Below are positions 15,862 through 31,831 of a stretch of DNA of 64,000 nucleotides, piece after piece. The stretch lies in contig NZ_JAGHQU010000005.1 in the NCBI RefSeq assembly GCF_017744135.1, positions 62,001 to 126,000 on the forward strand. The letters are read 5' to 3'. Position 1 is the stretch's first letter. The number at the start of each line of letters is the position of its first letter. Source of the stretch: Endozoicomonas sp. G2_2. Lineage in GTDB: Bacteria > Pseudomonadota > Gammaproteobacteria > Nevskiales > Salinisphaeraceae. A program made the translations under genes and the position numbers. The notes under the pieces were generated by a model. The model was not told the DNA's origin and ran no database searches. It worked only from the letters and a program-made list of their open reading frames with translations.

Positions 15862-17352
15862 ATGACCCAGTCACAGGGGGCGACCGTGGGCGCGCGCGCG
15901 AGCGATCCCGTTCGGGCCGACCGCGACGAGCGCGAACGCCTGCAACTCCAGCGCATGGAGCGCGCCCTGGTGCGCGCCTGGCTGACCGCGCCGAATGCCA
16001 TGCCCCAGGCCGACTACGAATGCCTGCGGTATGCCTTCGGCCTGGCGAAGCTGCATGTCTTTCGCGTGCCCGGCACGCGCCACGAAATCGTGGTGGACGG
16101 CGCGCGTATCGCGCCGCTGCGAGCCTGGCTGCTGGAACATCTTTATGACCGCCTGCGCGGCTCGGCGACCGCGGAACAGAAGCTGAGCTTCTGTCTCGAG
16201 GCCGTGCCGGATGCGCGCCGGCGCTGTATCGAGCTGCGCCGCGAGCTGCTCGCGCTGCACGGCGACGAATTCGCTGCCGACGATCTCGACCGCGAGGCCG
16301 GCAAACGGGCGCTGGTGATCGTGGCCGGCGGCGGCGGCGGCGCCGGCTATGTGTATGCCGGTGCGTTCGCGCGGCTCATGGAGGCCAATCTGATTCCCGA
16401 CTACATGGTCGGCAACTCCATCGGCGCGATCCTGGGGTTGTTCCGTGCCCAGCGCCGGCACGGCGACGTCAACGACTATCTCGACTTCGCCAGCAAGCTC
16501 AAGAACGGCGACATCTTCACCGGCGCCCGCCGACGCAGCGAGTTCTGTCTGCCCGGCCTGCTGCATCTGCACCTGCGCGCGCTGCACCAGCGCATGTCGA
16601 CCGGGGACCTGCGCCGGCCGCTGCGTCTGGATGAAATGGAAATTCCGCTCGATCTCGTGGTGGCGGGCATCCGGCGCCGCCCGTACGAGCGCCTGCCGTC
16701 CGACGTGCGCGCACCCCGCCAGGGCGCCGAGCGCTGGCTGCCGATGTGGATGCAGGTGGCCGCGCGGTTCACGCGGCTGCTGCAGTTCTTCAGCGCCGAC
16801 GTGGTGGAGCCCATCGTGCTCGGCCGCGATACCGACACCCGGCAGGTGCATGCCGTGGACGCCGCCGGTTTCTCGGCGGCGGTGCCCAGCATTCTCCAGT
16901 ACGAACCGGGGCCGGGCGCGGGCGTGACCCGCGAGATATTCTCCGAACTGATGGCGACGCGCGAGCTGGCGGCGATCGTCGACGGCGGCGTGGCCGACAA
17001 CGTGCCGGCGCGGGCGGCCTGGCGTGGCATCGCGGCCGGGCGCGCGGCTACACGCAATGCCTATTATCTGGCCTTCGACTGTTTCTTCCCGCGCGTCGAT
17101 GCCAAGAATTTCTGGCTCTGGCCGATCACCCAGACGGTGCAGATGCAGATGCGCGTCAACCGGGTTTATGCCGACACCATGGTGCGTTTCAATCGCACTT
17201 TGTCGCCGCTGAACATCGTGCCGAGCCCGGGTGCGCTGCACCTGTCGGTGGGTTGGGGGTATCAGGAAATGGACGAGCGCATGCCCGAGGTCGAGGAGAT
17301 GCTGCGGCCGGTCAGTCTGGTTTCCGGGCAGACGGAGGCACGTGCGTCATGA
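15862..17352 (+). CDS. patatin-like phospholipase
   Basis: 496 residues with a patatin lipase domain in the second half. The oxyanion-hole glycines GGGGGAG are at 156-162, the nucleophile elbow GNSIG has Ser186, and the dyad Asp374 is in DGG (IVDGGVADN). All three catalytic elements are intact, so an acyl-hydrolase acting on membrane or storage lipids is expected. The first 150 residues are a helical extension without a recognised domain, and there is no signal peptide, so it is cytoplasmic or peripherally membrane-bound. The stop overlaps the ATG of the following membrane protein (ATGA), so the two are translationally coupled and probably work together. Confidence 0.88.
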   Translation: MTQSQGATVGARASDPVRADRDERERLQLQRMERALVRAWLTAPNAMPQADYECLRYAFGLAKLHVFRVPGTRHEIVVDGARIAPLRAWLLEHLYDRLRGSATAEQKLSFCLEAVPDARRRCIELRRELLALHGDEFAADDLDREAGKRALVIVAGGGGGAGYVYAGAFARLMEANLIPDYMVGNSIGAILGLFRAQRRHGDVNDYLDFASKLKNGDIFTGARRRSEFCLPGLLHLHLRALHQRMSTGDLRRPLRLDEMEIPLDLVVAGIRRRPYERLPSDVRAPRQGAERWLPMWMQVAARFTRLLQFFSADVVEPIVLGRDTDTRQVHAVDAAGFSAAVPSILQYEPGPGAGVTREIFSELMATRELAAIVDGGVADNVPARAAWRGIAAGRAATRNAYYLAFDCFFPRVDAKNFWLWPITQTVQMQMRVNRVYADTMVRFNRTLSPLNIVPSPGALHLSVGWGYQEMDERMPEVEEMLRPVSLVSGQTEARAS

Positions 17353-18389
17353 GCGAAAACCAGGAACATCGCCAGGGCGCCAGCCCGTTCGATCTGGTCT
17401 CGGGCGATCGCACCCTGCGCGAGCGGCTGTTTCTTTTCTGGGATCTGGCGATCATCGTGCTGGTGTCGCTGAATCTGGCGTTGATCATATTCGACGCGCT
17501 GTTTGCGATCGGCCCGCTCGCGAACGTGTTCGAATCCGTCTGGTCGTCCGGCCACGGCTGGTACGAGTCGAACGTGCACGAGAATTTCGTGGCCATCGAC
17601 CTGGTGTTCGTGGCGATCTTCGTCACCGACGTGCTGGCCGGCTGGGCGCTCGCGATCGCCCAGAAGCGCTACTACCGCTGGTATTTCTATCCGTTCGCGC
17701 GCTGGTATGACGTGCTCGGTTGTATTCCGGTGGCGGGGTTTCGTTTTCTGCGCGTGCTGCGTGTCATCACCATCACCATGCGTCTGCAGCGTCTGGGCGT
17801 GATCGATATCCGCAACTGGGCGGTCTACAAGACCGCCATGGTCTATTACGACATCGTGGTCGAAGAGATTTCCGACCGGGTCGTGATCAAGGTGTTGTCG
17901 GGGGCCCAGGAGGAGCTGCAGAGCGGCGGCCAGGAGCTTTCGCACCGCGTCGTGCGCGAAGTGATTCAGCCGCGCCAGCAGCGTCTCGTGCAGGCAGCCA
18001 GCACGCATATCGAGAACGCCATCACCAGCGCCTATCAGGCCAATCGCGAGGAACTGCAGGCCTATGTCGCCAACGTGGTCAATCGCGGTGTGGACAACAA
18101 TGCCGCACTCCAGAATCTGGAACGCGTGCCGATGCTGGGCAGCTTCGTGTCGCGCGCGCTCGACGAGGCGATCACCGACACCGTGAACAACGTGCTCGAC
18201 GAGGCGGTCAATGGCCTGTCCTCCGCGGATTTCGATGCGCTGGTGCAGAACATCACCGACAGCGTGATTTCGCGCCTGCTCGCGGACGACATCGGCCAGA
18301 CGTCGGAGGTGCGCGACGCTGTCGTGGAAATCCTCGACCTGGTCAAGGAGCAGGTCGCCGTGCAGCGCTGGCGCGAGCATTTCGAGTAG
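17349..18389 (+). CDS. voltage-sensor-like membrane protein without a pore
   Basis: 346 residues. Four hydrophobic segments fall at about 27-54, 78-105, 111-128 and 130-148. The fourth is S4-like, with Arg at 132, 135, 138, 145 and 148, the every-third-residue spacing of voltage sensors. No S5, pore loop with TxGYG, or S6 follows. Instead residues 160-346 form a soluble, amphipathic helical domain with repeated Val/Ile-Gln-Asn patterns. Annotation pipelines may label relatives ion transporter. ATGA overlap with the patatin gene implies joint synthesis. Whether it senses potential, forms a pore by oligomerising, or merely tethers the lipase is unknown. Confidence 0.75.
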   Translation: MSENQEHRQGASPFDLVSGDRTLRERLFLFWDLAIIVLVSLNLALIIFDALFAIGPLANVFESVWSSGHGWYESNVHENFVAIDLVFVAIFVTDVLAGWALAIAQKRYYRWYFYPFARWYDVLGCIPVAGFRFLRVLRVITITMRLQRLGVIDIRNWAVYKTAMVYYDIVVEEISDRVVIKVLSGAQEELQSGGQELSHRVVREVIQPRQQRLVQAASTHIENAITSAYQANREELQAYVANVVNRGVDNNAALQNLERVPMLGSFVSRALDEAITDTVNNVLDEAVNGLSSADFDALVQNITDSVISRLLADDIGQTSEVRDAVVEILDLVKEQVAVQRWREHFE

Positions 18390-23127: not shown

Positions 23128-23589
23128 ATGGACGAGACGCTGGACAAGCGCGACCCGGCCGTACGCGCGGGCATCGCGGCGCGATTCAACGCGCGTATTC
23201 CCTACAACCAGGCGATCGGGCTGCGCGTGGTCGATGTCAGCACCGATCGTATCGTCACCGCGCTGGCCTATCGCGAGGATTTTCTCGGCGATCCGACGGC
23301 CGGTCTCTGGCATACCGCCGTGGGCCTGAGCGCGGCCGACAGCACCTGCGGGCTGGCGGTGTTTCTCGCCTTGCCCGGGCTGGAATCCATCGCCACGCTG
23401 GATCTGCGCATGGACTACCTGCGTCCGGCGGTAGCGGGCCACGATCTCCGGATCGAGGCCGAGTGCTATCACCTCACGCGCTGCGTGGGTTTCGTGCGGG
23501 CAACGCTGCACCAGGGCGAGCGCGAACGCGCCGTTTCGCTGTGTACCGCGGCGTTCATGCGCACCGGCCAACCCATGGCGGTCTCGTGA
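23128..23589 (+). CDS. PaaI-like hotdog thioesterase (first of a pair)
   Basis: 153 residues of the hotdog fold. The opening helix leads into IPYNQAIGLRVVDV, the central helix is TAVGLSAADSTCGLAVFLALPG, and the last strands include TLDLRMDYLRPAVAG, a typical acyl-CoA thioesterase pattern. In most PaaI-type enzymes the central helix reads HGG..., while here the residues are WHTAVGLSAAD, so the catalytic acid is probably Asp in SAADS. The substrate is unknown. The stop overlaps the GTG start of the next, related gene, which suggests a heterodimer or tetramer. Confidence 0.82.
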   Translation: MDETLDKRDPAVRAGIAARFNARIPYNQAIGLRVVDVSTDRIVTALAYREDFLGDPTAGLWHTAVGLSAADSTCGLAVFLALPGLESIATLDLRMDYLRPAVAGHDLRIEAECYHLTRCVGFVRATLHQGERERAVSLCTAAFMRTGQPMAVS

Positions 23590-24050
23590 GCGGCGTGGAC
23601 GAGCCCTCGGCCGCCATCGATGATTCCGCAGCCCTGGTCGCGGCGATTCCCTATGCGCGTTATCTGGATATCCGGATCGAGACGGCGACCGGCGAAACCG
23701 GGCGCATCTATCGCATGCCCTTTCGCGACGCGCTGATCGGCAGTCCGCGGCTGCAGGCGCTGCACGGCGGCACGGTCGCCAGCCTGTTGGAGCTGGCCAT
23801 GCAGTTCGAGGTGCTGATCGCCGAACGCCAGGCGCGCCTGCCGTATCCGGTGGATTTCTCGATCGACTACTGGCGCTCGGCCGCCGCCAGCGACTGCCAC
23901 TGCCGGTGTCGGTTGATCCGCTCGGGCCGGCGCGTTGCCCAGGTGCAGGCCGAATGCTGGCAGGACGATCCCGAGCGGCCGATCGCCTTCGCGCGCGCGG
24001 ATTTCCTGTTGCGTACGGCCGATGGGGCCGAGCCGTCGAACGACGCCTGA
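23586..24050 (+). CDS. PaaI-like hotdog thioesterase (second of a pair)
   Basis: 154 residues from a GTG that overlaps the previous stop (GTGA). It has the same hotdog plan: AIPYARYLDIRIE, the active-helix LHGGTVASLLELAMQFEVL with canonical His-Gly-Gly, and VDFSIDYWRSAAASD. Here the catalytic helix is closer to the standard form than in the partner gene, so this may be the more active subunit. Two adjacent, coupled but divergent hotdog proteins are most easily explained as duplicated subunits of one enzyme. TesB follows 143 nt later on the same strand. Confidence 0.82.
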   Translation: MSGVDEPSAAIDDSAALVAAIPYARYLDIRIETATGETGRIYRMPFRDALIGSPRLQALHGGTVASLLELAMQFEVLIAERQARLPYPVDFSIDYWRSAAASDCHCRCRLIRSGRRVAQVQAECWQDDPERPIAFARADFLLRTADGAEPSNDA

Positions 24051-24193
24051 TCGTGCCTTGCCCGCCGGCGCTGCCGGGATCGGGCAGGGATGCATTAGAC
24101 TAAGGGCTAAGAAGGGGCCGCGAGCCGGTCCCTGTTTCTTCGGTTCCAAGACGCCGTCCGCCCCGCGCCGACGGCCCGTAAGCGAGACGCACG

Positions 24194-25096
24194 ATGACAG
24201 GGGATGGGGAACGCCTGGTCAAGGATCTGCTTGATCAGCTCGATCTGGAAGCACTCGAACAGCGGCTGTTCCGCGGCAGCTCGCGGGATATCGGCGGCAA
24301 GAGCGTATTCGGCGGCCAGGTCGCCGGCCAGGCCATGGTCGCGGCCACGCGCACGGTGGACCCGTCGCAGCAGGCTCACTCCATGCATGGCTATTTCCTG
24401 CGTCCGGGCGACATGCAGGCCGCCATCGTCTACGAGGTGGACAACATCCGCGACGGCAAGAGTTTTGCCACCCGTCGCGTGCAGGCGATTCAGCACGGCC
24501 GGCCGATCTTTTCCATGCTGGTGTCGTTTCATGTGGCCGAAACCGGCTATACCCACCAGATGCCCATGCCGGACGTGCCGGGCCCGGAAGAACTGGTCAG
24601 CCACGACGAGCTGCGTCACGAATGGGTGGACGCGCTCGACCGGGTGCCGGAGTCGTTGCGCGAGGCCGTCGGCCGCGAGGTCGCCATCGACATGCGCGCG
24701 GCCAAACCCTGGAACATGCTTGCCCCCGACAAGCGCGAGCCGATCCAGCATGTCTGGTTCAAGGCCAAGGCGCCGCTGCCGGACGATCAGGCCCTGCACC
24801 GCGCGGTGCTCACCTATGCCAGCGACTTCGGCCTGCTGGCTACCTCGCTGTTCCCGCACGGCGTGTCGTTCTTCACCCCGGGCATGCAGATGGCCAGCAT
24901 CGACCACGCGCTGTGGTTTCATCGCGATCTGAAGGTGGACGACTGGCTGCTCTATGCCATGGACAGCCCCGGCGCGCAGGACGCGCGCGGTCTGTCGCGC
25001 GGGCTGATCTTCAATCGCGACGGCCAACTGGTGGCCTCGGTTGCCCAGGAAGGGTTGATCCGTCAACGCGAGCCGCAGCCGAAAAAGGACGCCTGA
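24194..25096 (+). CDS. tesB: acyl-CoA thioesterase II TesB
   Basis: 300 residues containing two tandem hotdog domains, the TesB architecture. Recognisable blocks are VFGGQVAGQAMVAATRTV, SMHGYFLRPGD, FSMLVSFH in the first half, and LTYASDFGLLATSLFPHG, MASIDHALWFHRDL (conserved catalytic Asp), LSRGLIFNRDGQLVASVAQEGLIR in the second. It hydrolyses medium- and long-chain acyl-CoAs to free fatty acids and CoA. Length (E. coli 286) and motifs match well. Together with the two preceding thioesterases it forms a run of three acyl-CoA hydrolases. Confidence 0.95.
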   Translation: MTGDGERLVKDLLDQLDLEALEQRLFRGSSRDIGGKSVFGGQVAGQAMVAATRTVDPSQQAHSMHGYFLRPGDMQAAIVYEVDNIRDGKSFATRRVQAIQHGRPIFSMLVSFHVAETGYTHQMPMPDVPGPEELVSHDELRHEWVDALDRVPESLREAVGREVAIDMRAAKPWNMLAPDKREPIQHVWFKAKAPLPDDQALHRAVLTYASDFGLLATSLFPHGVSFFTPGMQMASIDHALWFHRDLKVDDWLLYAMDSPGAQDARGLSRGLIFNRDGQLVASVAQEGLIRQREPQPKKDA

Positions 25097-30117: not shown

Positions 30118-30438
30118 TCAGCGCTTCGGCCGCCGGATCTGCGGGCGAAAGCCGGGCGGTTTGTCTGCCAGCCAGTCGATGAACGTGGCGATCTCGGGAT
30201 GCGCGCGCAGGGCTGCGCGGCTGTTGTAGGTCTCGGCGAGTTCCTTTTCGCCGAGCACGGCGTGGATATGGCTGTGGCAGGGCCGGCAGACATGCAGAAT
30301 GGCGGTGAGTCGCTCCTCGCGATCGAAACGCTTGCGGATGCGCTTGAGCCGATGCGTACGGCGCGGGATCAGGTGGTGGCGCGTGGTACGCACACCCGCC
30401 CGGCCGCAGAGCTCGCAGCGAGGCGGGTCAGCCGCCAT
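30118..30438 (-). CDS. small HNH-type endonuclease-like protein
   Basis: 106 residues. Cysteine pairs CELCGR (residues 8-13) and CRPCHSHIH form a zinc knuckle flanking the HNH-like core TRHHLIPR (His-His, then HVCRPCHSHIHAVL), the usual arrangement in small bacterial HNH proteins. Substrate and role are unknown; such stand-alone HNH proteins occur both on mobile elements and as housekeeping proteins. The start overlaps the 3' end of the upstream WS/DGAT gene by 11 nt, so it is probably translated from the same message. Confidence 0.82.
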   Translation of the reverse strand: MAADPPRCELCGRAGVRTTRHHLIPRRTHRLKRIRKRFDREERLTAILHVCRPCHSHIHAVLGEKELAETYNSRAALRAHPEIATFIDWLADKPPGFRPQIRRPKR

Positions 30439-31831
30439 CCGCGGCGACACCGTCGCGCCCGGTATGGGGCACGTCGGTGGGTTCCAGATCGTCCAGCGCG
30501 TCGGCCAGGAACTGCAGCATGTGCTGCATGCTGGGCACGGAGCGTCGGCAGGCGATGAGGCCGAACTCGAGAGAGTCCTGATAGCTGACCATGCTGATGT
30601 TGAGGGCCTGGCCGTCGAGCACGATGGAAACCGGATACATGCCTTCGAGCGTCGCATCGCCGTAGTAGAGCGTCTCGCTCGGCCCGGGGACGTTGGAGAT
30701 CACCACGTTGAACGACTGATGCTTCGGGGCGATGCCGGTGAGCAGGTTCACGCCCGCCGGCGTACCGAGCGCGGCGGTGAAGCCCAGGATCTGTTCGCTG
30801 GTCATGGCCTCGTAGCGGCGTTTCCAGTGATCCACCGACTGCCGGATGGTGGCCAGGCGTTCGACCGGGTCGGCGACGTCGGTGGCGAGGCTGGCGAAGA
30901 TCATGGCCACGTTGTTGCCGGTGCCGCTGTCGGCCGTATGCAAGGACACCGGCAGCATGGCGATCAGCGGCTGACCGGGCAGCGCGTCCTGTTCGATCAG
31001 ATACTCGCGCAGCGCGCTCGCGCACATGGCGAGCACGATATCGTTGACCGTGGCGTCGTAGTGTTTGGCCAGCCGCTTGATCCGGCTCAGCGAATACGAC
31101 TGCGCCGCGAAGCGCCGCGAGCCGCTGATGCGCCGGTTGAGCATGCATGACGGCGCCTGCTTGAAGGCCGTGAAACCGGGTTCGTGGCGCGCGTCCTGCC
31201 AGGCCTGCAGCACCTCGTGGCCCACCCGCGGCAGCGCCGCCAGCTGACGACCGGTGGCGCCGATCGCCTTCAGCGCCGATCGCCACGGCGGCGCCCGTCG
31301 CGCGGCTGGTGTATCACCGCCGTCGGAGGACAACGCCCAGGGTACGAGCATGCCGCCGGGGCTCGGCTGGTTGTTCAGCGAGCGGCGCATCACGCGCATG
31401 GCGCTGATGCCGTCCATGATCGAGTGATGAAACTTGGTGTAGACCGCGAAGCGATTCCCGGTCACGCCCTCGATGATGTAGGTCTCCCACATGGGCCGCG
31501 ACCGATCGAGCAACGCGCCGTGGAGCATGGAAACCAGCGCGAGCAGATCACGGATGGCGCCCGGCTGCGGCAGGGCCAGATGGCGTACGTGGTATTCCAG
31601 ATCGAAGCTGTCGTCGTCGACCCAGAACGGCTGGCCGAAGCGATACTTCAGGCGCCGGTCGAACGGCGGCTGCACGTCGGAGAAGCCGCGTGCGGTCGCC
31701 ACCAGTTCGCGCACATAGTCCGGCCCGGCGTTCTCCGGCAGCGAAAACAGCTGCAGCCCGCCGACATGCATGGGCTGGTTGCGGCGCTCGAGGCGCAGAA
31801 AGATCTGGTCGACGGGATTGAGCAGCCGCAT
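30428..31831 (-). CDS. wax ester synthase / diacylglycerol O-acyltransferase (WS/DGAT)
   Basis: 467 residues matching bacterial WS/DGATs in length and motifs. The opening LLNPVDQIFLRLERRNQPMHVGGL is the family N terminus, and HHSIMDG at 135-141 is the HHxxxDG active site. It condenses acyl-CoA with fatty alcohols or diacylglycerol to make wax esters or triacylglycerol as storage lipid, and works at the inner membrane. ATG start; the following HNH gene overlaps its end. Together with the TesB and other acyl-CoA genes it supports a lipid-storing lifestyle. Confidence 0.92.
   Translation of the reverse strand: MRLLNPVDQIFLRLERRNQPMHVGGLQLFSLPENAGPDYVRELVATARGFSDVQPPFDRRLKYRFGQPFWVDDDSFDLEYHVRHLALPQPGAIRDLLALVSMLHGALLDRSRPMWETYIIEGVTGNRFAVYTKFHHSIMDGISAMRVMRRSLNNQPSPGGMLVPWALSSDGGDTPAARRAPPWRSALKAIGATGRQLAALPRVGHEVLQAWQDARHEPGFTAFKQAPSCMLNRRISGSRRFAAQSYSLSRIKRLAKHYDATVNDIVLAMCASALREYLIEQDALPGQPLIAMLPVSLHTADSGTGNNVAMIFASLATDVADPVERLATIRQSVDHWKRRYEAMTSEQILGFTAALGTPAGVNLLTGIAPKHQSFNVVISNVPGPSETLYYGDATLEGMYPVSIVLDGQALNISMVSYQDSLEFGLIACRRSVPSMQHMLQFLADALDDLEPTDVPHTGRDGVAADGG

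Follow-up and report, generated by a model that had tools for sequence, protein, structure and literature searches.

The gene that follows a patatin gene in the window (the whole 64,000-nt stretch of DNA analysed) encodes a membrane protein belonging to a widespread gammaproteobacterial family. Sequence comparison supports homology between its membrane part and the S1-S4 half of bacterial cation channels; the pore half is missing, and a conserved helical cytosolic domain appears to stand in its place. The protein is very probably a pore-less voltage-sensor homologue with a general function independent of patatin, and the adjacency of the two genes is confined to Salinisphaera.

The overlapping patatin and membrane-protein genes

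Gene 1 (patatin) and gene 2 (encoding the membrane protein, hereafter the sensor-like gene) lie on the same strand, and their features are collected in Table 1. The initial annotation had reported an ATGA overlap, which is present, and had called the two genes 'translationally fused', which is not borne out: they are separate ORFs sharing four nucleotides, and gene 2 has its own ATG with GGAGG 10 nt upstream, so two separate proteins, and no fusion, are expected. The 4-nt overlap is kept at 12 of the 13 Salinisphaera loci. The other (L067, from the Salinisphaera sp. GH4 MAG) is the only one with a 16-bp gap, and past the metallo-beta-lactamase-fold gene other genes take the place of its usual flanks. 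Purifying selection acts on gene 1 and gene 2 alike (pN/pS 0.13-0.22 versus the closest species), at a strength comparable with that on neighbouring genes.

Table 1 Features of the patatin gene and the adjoining sensor-like gene, in window positions.
Feature	Position	Strand	Basis
Patatin-like acyl hydrolase gene (gene 1), 496 aa	15862..17352	+	PF01734, hydropathy, homologue alignment
Predicted patatin oxyanion loop, residues 156-167, GGGGGAGYVYAG	16327..16362	+	Alignment of 22 homologues
Nucleophile elbow GNSIG with catalytic Ser186	16411..16425	+	Ser186 invariant in 22 homologues
Catalytic Asp374 within DGG motif	16981..16989	+	Asp374 invariant in 22 homologues
GGAGG, Shine-Dalgarno-like, 10 nt upstream of the gene 2 ATG, within the end of the patatin gene	17334..17338	+	Sequence
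ATGA, where the gene 1 stop and the gene 2 start overlap	17349..17352	+	Sequence
Pore-less voltage-sensor-like membrane protein (gene 2), 346 aa	17349..18389	+	Family alignment, profile comparisons
S1, residues 27-52; Asp32 (96% D), Asp49 (94% D/E)	17427..17504	+	51-sequence alignment
S2, residues 80-104; D84-x6-F91-x2-D94, charge-transfer-centre pattern	17586..17660	+	51-sequence alignment
S3, residues 117-128, ARWYDVLGCIPV; unusually short; position 121 always acidic, Pro127 invariant	17697..17732	+	51-sequence alignment
S4, residues 129-150; Arg132, 135, 138, 145, 148	17733..17798	+	51-sequence alignment
Cytosolic helical tail, residues 156-346; EEISDRV motif and Pro261 conserved; no known domain	17814..18386	+	Alignment, prediction, hydropathy

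Patatin is the sole significant Pfam domain of the gene 1 product (PF01734, E 1.2e-18, residues 154-387). Beside the catalytic Ser and Asp, Gly156-160, Tyr165 and Gly167 of the oxyanion loop are invariant in the 22 homologues, in agreement with the earlier description of an intact patatin gene; the features by which the family is recognised (Gly-rich oxyanion loop, Ser in GxSxG, Asp in DGG/A) are thus all found. Hydropathy indicates a soluble protein, with neither a signal peptide nor a membrane helix apparent, and most simply gene 1 encodes a predicted cytosolic acyl hydrolase. It has the oxyanion loop, GxSxG and DGG in common with patatin-like phospholipases (PF01734), but differs from them in a conserved N-terminal stretch of ~140 aa of its own. 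PlpD (5fqu; E 8e-4) is the nearest solved relative, and no counterpart of the PlpD secretion barrel domain was found among significant Pfam domains. The N-terminal stretch (residues 1-150, window 15862-16320) precedes the patatin domain, lies outside the Pfam match and carries the motifs LQRME..LVRA and LRYxLxxARL in the window protein and its homologues.

This patatin family was seen only in the order of the window, in one other gammaproteobacterium (G492) and in Myxococcota, and a plasmid search for it gave no matches. Members from two Myxococcota MAGs (L072, L073; 37% identity) have no membrane protein in the flanks shown. At a further locus (L100, G060:C2:602107-608432) the patatin gene is interrupted: ~4.9 kb containing several ORFs separates its two pieces, which looks like an insertion. 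Gene calls were mechanical and starts may be misplaced; the patatin gene of G024 (L098) was absent from the calls and was recovered by protein search.

Voltage-sensor homology of the gene 2 family

The membrane-protein family was aligned from 51 homologues of about a dozen families, with 20-85% overall identity. The five Arg that the initial annotation had placed at 132, 135, 138, 145 and 148 are all there: R132 and R138 are invariant, R135 is kept in 96% and R145 in 98% of the sequences, and position 148 is R/K in 78%. R132, R135 and R138 occupy every third position, with R145 and R148 out of step by one. In S2 and S3, F91 (90%), D/E94 (98%) and D/E121 (100%) are similarly retained, as are the acids at both ends of S1. 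D84-x6-F91-x2-D/E94 is presumably the charge-transfer-centre pattern, as in Shaker and NavAb. A review gives a second basis for this reading (PMC13095418). Potassium channels with TVGYGD from related bacteria (L162, L163) carry the same S2 pattern, and D84, F91, D/E94, D/E121, P127 and R132/135/138/145 align with them.

Profile comparisons point the same way. The family profile matched a profile of real channels over S1-S3 with 97% probability (hhalign, E 8.4e-11), and PDB profile searches gave NaChBac as one of their matches, though a weak one (E 0.03). Of seven short homologues scanned from the order (249-279 aa), five exceed the Ion_trans (PF00520) cut-off (27-41 bits versus 25; best E 1.5e-10). 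In every case the match covers positions 3-114 of the 241 in the profile; a true channel of the same genome matches positions 2-234. The window protein alone scores 13.3 bits (E 0.047), under the Pfam cut-off, and Ion_trans membership of this long form therefore rests on the family alignment.

Since the Ion_trans match stops at about position 114, the pore half appears to be missing from the family as sampled. No S5-pore-S6 is present, no filter motif was found in the 51 sequences, and the hydropathy of the window protein's tail shows nothing like a membrane segment (0.88 at most over 19 residues). The tail of ~190 residues is, as first described, predicted to be helical; a Pfam scan gave it no identity. 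The earlier view of a voltage-sensor-like protein without a pore is accordingly borne out by sequence homology (family alignment, profile comparison and the Ion_trans half match). Its four clear membrane helices are less secure: hydropathy merges S3 and S4 of the window protein into one stretch (122-140), and two AF2 models (from 26 and 46 sequences) are weak, with mean pLDDT of 60 and 73 and about 52-68 over S3-S4. Foldseek gave no significant match, NavAb being the top match for the first model at E 0.43, and no channel was among the matches listed for the second. Structure prediction thus leaves the fold unconfirmed, and the four-helix reading is a putative one drawn from homology.

Relative to voltage-gated cation channels (bacterial Kv, NavAb, NaChBac), to which homology is detectable, the gene 2 product has the same S1-S4 order, S2 D-x6-F-x2-D/E, an acid followed by Pro in S3 and the S4 Arg triad, but it has a short S3 and, instead of S5-pore-S6, the conserved cytosolic helical domain. 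Eukaryotes are known to have voltage sensors that lack a pore (Hv1 and VSP). At the level of sequence, gene 2 resembles Hv1 in having a stand-alone voltage-sensor domain and a helical C-terminus; however, Hv1 is eukaryotic and the gene 2 tail is longer and differently conserved. In Ci-VSP, likewise, a cytosolic domain comes after the voltage-sensor domain where a channel would have its pore, but the gene 2 tail, predicted to be all-helical and of no known fold, gives no Pfam phosphatase match that would point to a PTEN-like catalytic domain. According to a 2023 review that included a database check, each prokaryotic voltage-sensing domain so far known is accompanied by a pore domain (PMC10377628); the gammaproteobacterial family described here, conserved and pore-less, contradicts this statement at the sequence level. 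No description of a pore-less bacterial voltage-sensor family was found in open-access full text, nor anything relevant on a patatin with a voltage sensor in the open-access literature, and the gene 2 family is seemingly undescribed. Some gammaproteobacterial members are annotated as 'preprotein translocase subunit SecA', among them a homologue in Acinetobacter (CP035931) that belongs to the same family (26.6% identity over 93% of the length); no family member matches SecA in a Pfam scan, and this annotation looks wrong.

Distribution and neighbours of the two genes

The survey covered 85 genomes of the order and 27 other genomes carrying the sensor-like gene. Within the order, the sensor-like gene is present as a single copy in 71 genomes (19 of 21 genera), and patatin in 33 (8 genera). 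The window itself belongs to a Salinisphaera genome, loci homologous to it at 61-88% identity being named Salinisphaera. Among 61 related genomes, the two are adjacent and co-directional in all 13 Salinisphaera having them, and adjacency was seen only there. A further 19 genomes of the order, outside Salinisphaera, hold both genes, but no adjacency was seen in them: the two lie on separate contigs or, where they share one contig, 300-720 kb from each other; in one of these (G817) the patatin gene is truncated at a contig end, leaving adjacency possible. Only one of the 27 other carriers (G492) has patatin, 331 kb away, and the sensor-like gene occurs in other gammaproteobacterial families, including those of Acinetobacter and Halomonas. 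Outside Salinisphaera, homologues are single or unlinked in nearly all genomes, which is the pattern that the initial annotation itself had named as counting against a special lipase and sensor system, and that proposal is therefore not upheld.

Sister genera have the sensor-like gene at the same locus without patatin. At one such locus (L076) it follows an MsrA-like gene and the metallo-beta-lactamase-fold gene that is also upstream in Salinisphaera, and at another (L075) it is followed, as in the window, by genes for an M15-type peptidase, an L,D-transpeptidase, a LON-domain protein and a thioesterase. The sensor-like gene therefore holds its place with or without patatin.

Elsewhere the upstream neighbour varies with lineage: a 4HBT thioesterase gene in most Halomonas-like genomes, an acyltransferase gene in Acinetobacter and a relative, a cobalamin adenosyltransferase gene in two genera of one family, an exonuclease III gene in another family and a LysM/SLT (lytic) transglycosylase gene in a third, with no close upstream partner in several lineages. 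The cobalamin adenosyltransferase and exonuclease III genes overlap the sensor-like gene by 4 nt (L148, 5687-7299; L149, 5198-6813; L152, 2884-4715), and such an overlap with unrelated genes is therefore uninformative on pairing. In Acinetobacter baumannii CP035931 (L141, 5007-6996), the homologue starts 16 bp after the acyltransferase gene (PF01553) and is directly followed by a minC-like gene and then minD/minE; another locus (L157) shares both the acyltransferase neighbour and the min genes. Acyl-lipid enzymes are recurrent neighbours in three lineages (patatin, thioesterase, acyltransferase), a tally made post hoc that is suggestive.

A dedicated operon for a lipase-sensor pair was rejected, as adjacency is confined to Salinisphaera and the same gene adjoins unrelated genes in other families. 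A role in defence or damage (CapV of CBASS and similar) was likewise rejected: neither protein gave a PADLOC match at E 0.1, and the damage-responsive effector proposed earlier found no support.

Proposed function and alternative explanations

The preferred explanation, which taken as a whole we hold with some confidence, is that patatin and the sensor-like protein are two independent proteins whose genes come together in an operon-like arrangement in Salinisphaera alone. Membrane potential would shift or strain S4 of the gene 2 product, S4 motion would move the attached helical domain, and this domain would act on a partner, cytosolic or in the membrane, that these bacteria have in common; patatin is not that general partner. 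The analysis shows the homology, the lack of a pore, the conserved charges and a distribution independent of patatin, while both the voltage response and the role of the tail as an effector or adaptor are inferred. Real voltage sensing is a tentative part of this account: S3 is short and the S4 register breaks after R138 (the next Arg being 145), and sensing may therefore be lost or altered. Somewhat doubtful, too, is the broadest form of the proposal, in which working pore-less sensors of a widespread bacterial family, near-core throughout an order and wrongly annotated outside it, would pass potential changes to a cytosolic helical effector. If true, they would be a prokaryotic analogue of voltage-sensing phosphatases, and the family makes testable the idea that membrane potential serves as a direct bacterial signal to a cytosolic domain. 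The pairing with a lipase is an ordinary, local neighbourhood at the level of a genus.

The main rival is a degenerate channel remnant serving as a static membrane anchor, with charges kept for folding and a tail that works without voltage dependence. The short S3, the broken S4 register and the conserved tail motifs (EEISDRV, Pro261) are all as such a remnant would have them, whereas counter-charges, the S2 Phe and three S4 Arg that stay almost invariant at 20-85% identity are more than an anchor seems to need; the reading is a possible one, on which we remain sceptical. A stand-alone S1-S4 domain with acids at both S1 ends, an S4 Arg ladder and a helical C-terminal region could, by analogy with Hv1, itself conduct, giving a voltage-gated proton or cation leak with the tail used for assembly. 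Hv1 has an invariant Trp in S4 (PMC10377628), however, and the S4 Arg stretch lacks Trp both in the window protein and in its aligned homologues, making Hv1-like conduction less likely; the tail is also long and shows conservation of its own, and of the alternatives weighed here a leak seems the most improbable.

Two further alternatives concern patatin. In Salinisphaera the sensor-like protein might recruit or potential-switch the lipase for regulated lipid remodelling, and constant adjacency there (13 of 13, co-directional, with the overlap in 12), persisting even in L067 where most flanking genes differ, would be compatible with a functional link confined to this genus. In favour of such a module, too, the sensor-like gene lies beside genes for acyl-lipid enzymes (4HBT thioesterase, acyltransferase) in two other lineages. 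The module is nevertheless improbable: adjacency was not found in the 19 genomes of the order that have both genes outside Salinisphaera, patatin is absent from 26 of the 27 other carriers, the domain content of each protein is the same whether or not the two are paired, cobalamin adenosyltransferase and exonuclease III genes show the same 4-nt overlap, and the metallo-beta-lactamase-fold gene adjoins patatin just as constantly. Patatin could instead be a triacylglycerol or wax-ester lipase in storage-lipid turnover, matching a WS/DGAT gene, with the sensor-like protein as a passenger. The WS/DGAT gene is real (30428-31831; PF03007, E 1.5e-74), and the stretch that separates it from patatin includes three acyl-CoA thioesterase genes, but this stretch spans 13 kb and also holds unrelated genes, and a storage-lipid role appears unlikely.

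Independently of the two-protein explanation preferred here, the three acyl-CoA thioesterase genes (23128-25096) and the WS/DGAT gene (30428-31831) make this part of the window a lipid-rich neighbourhood.
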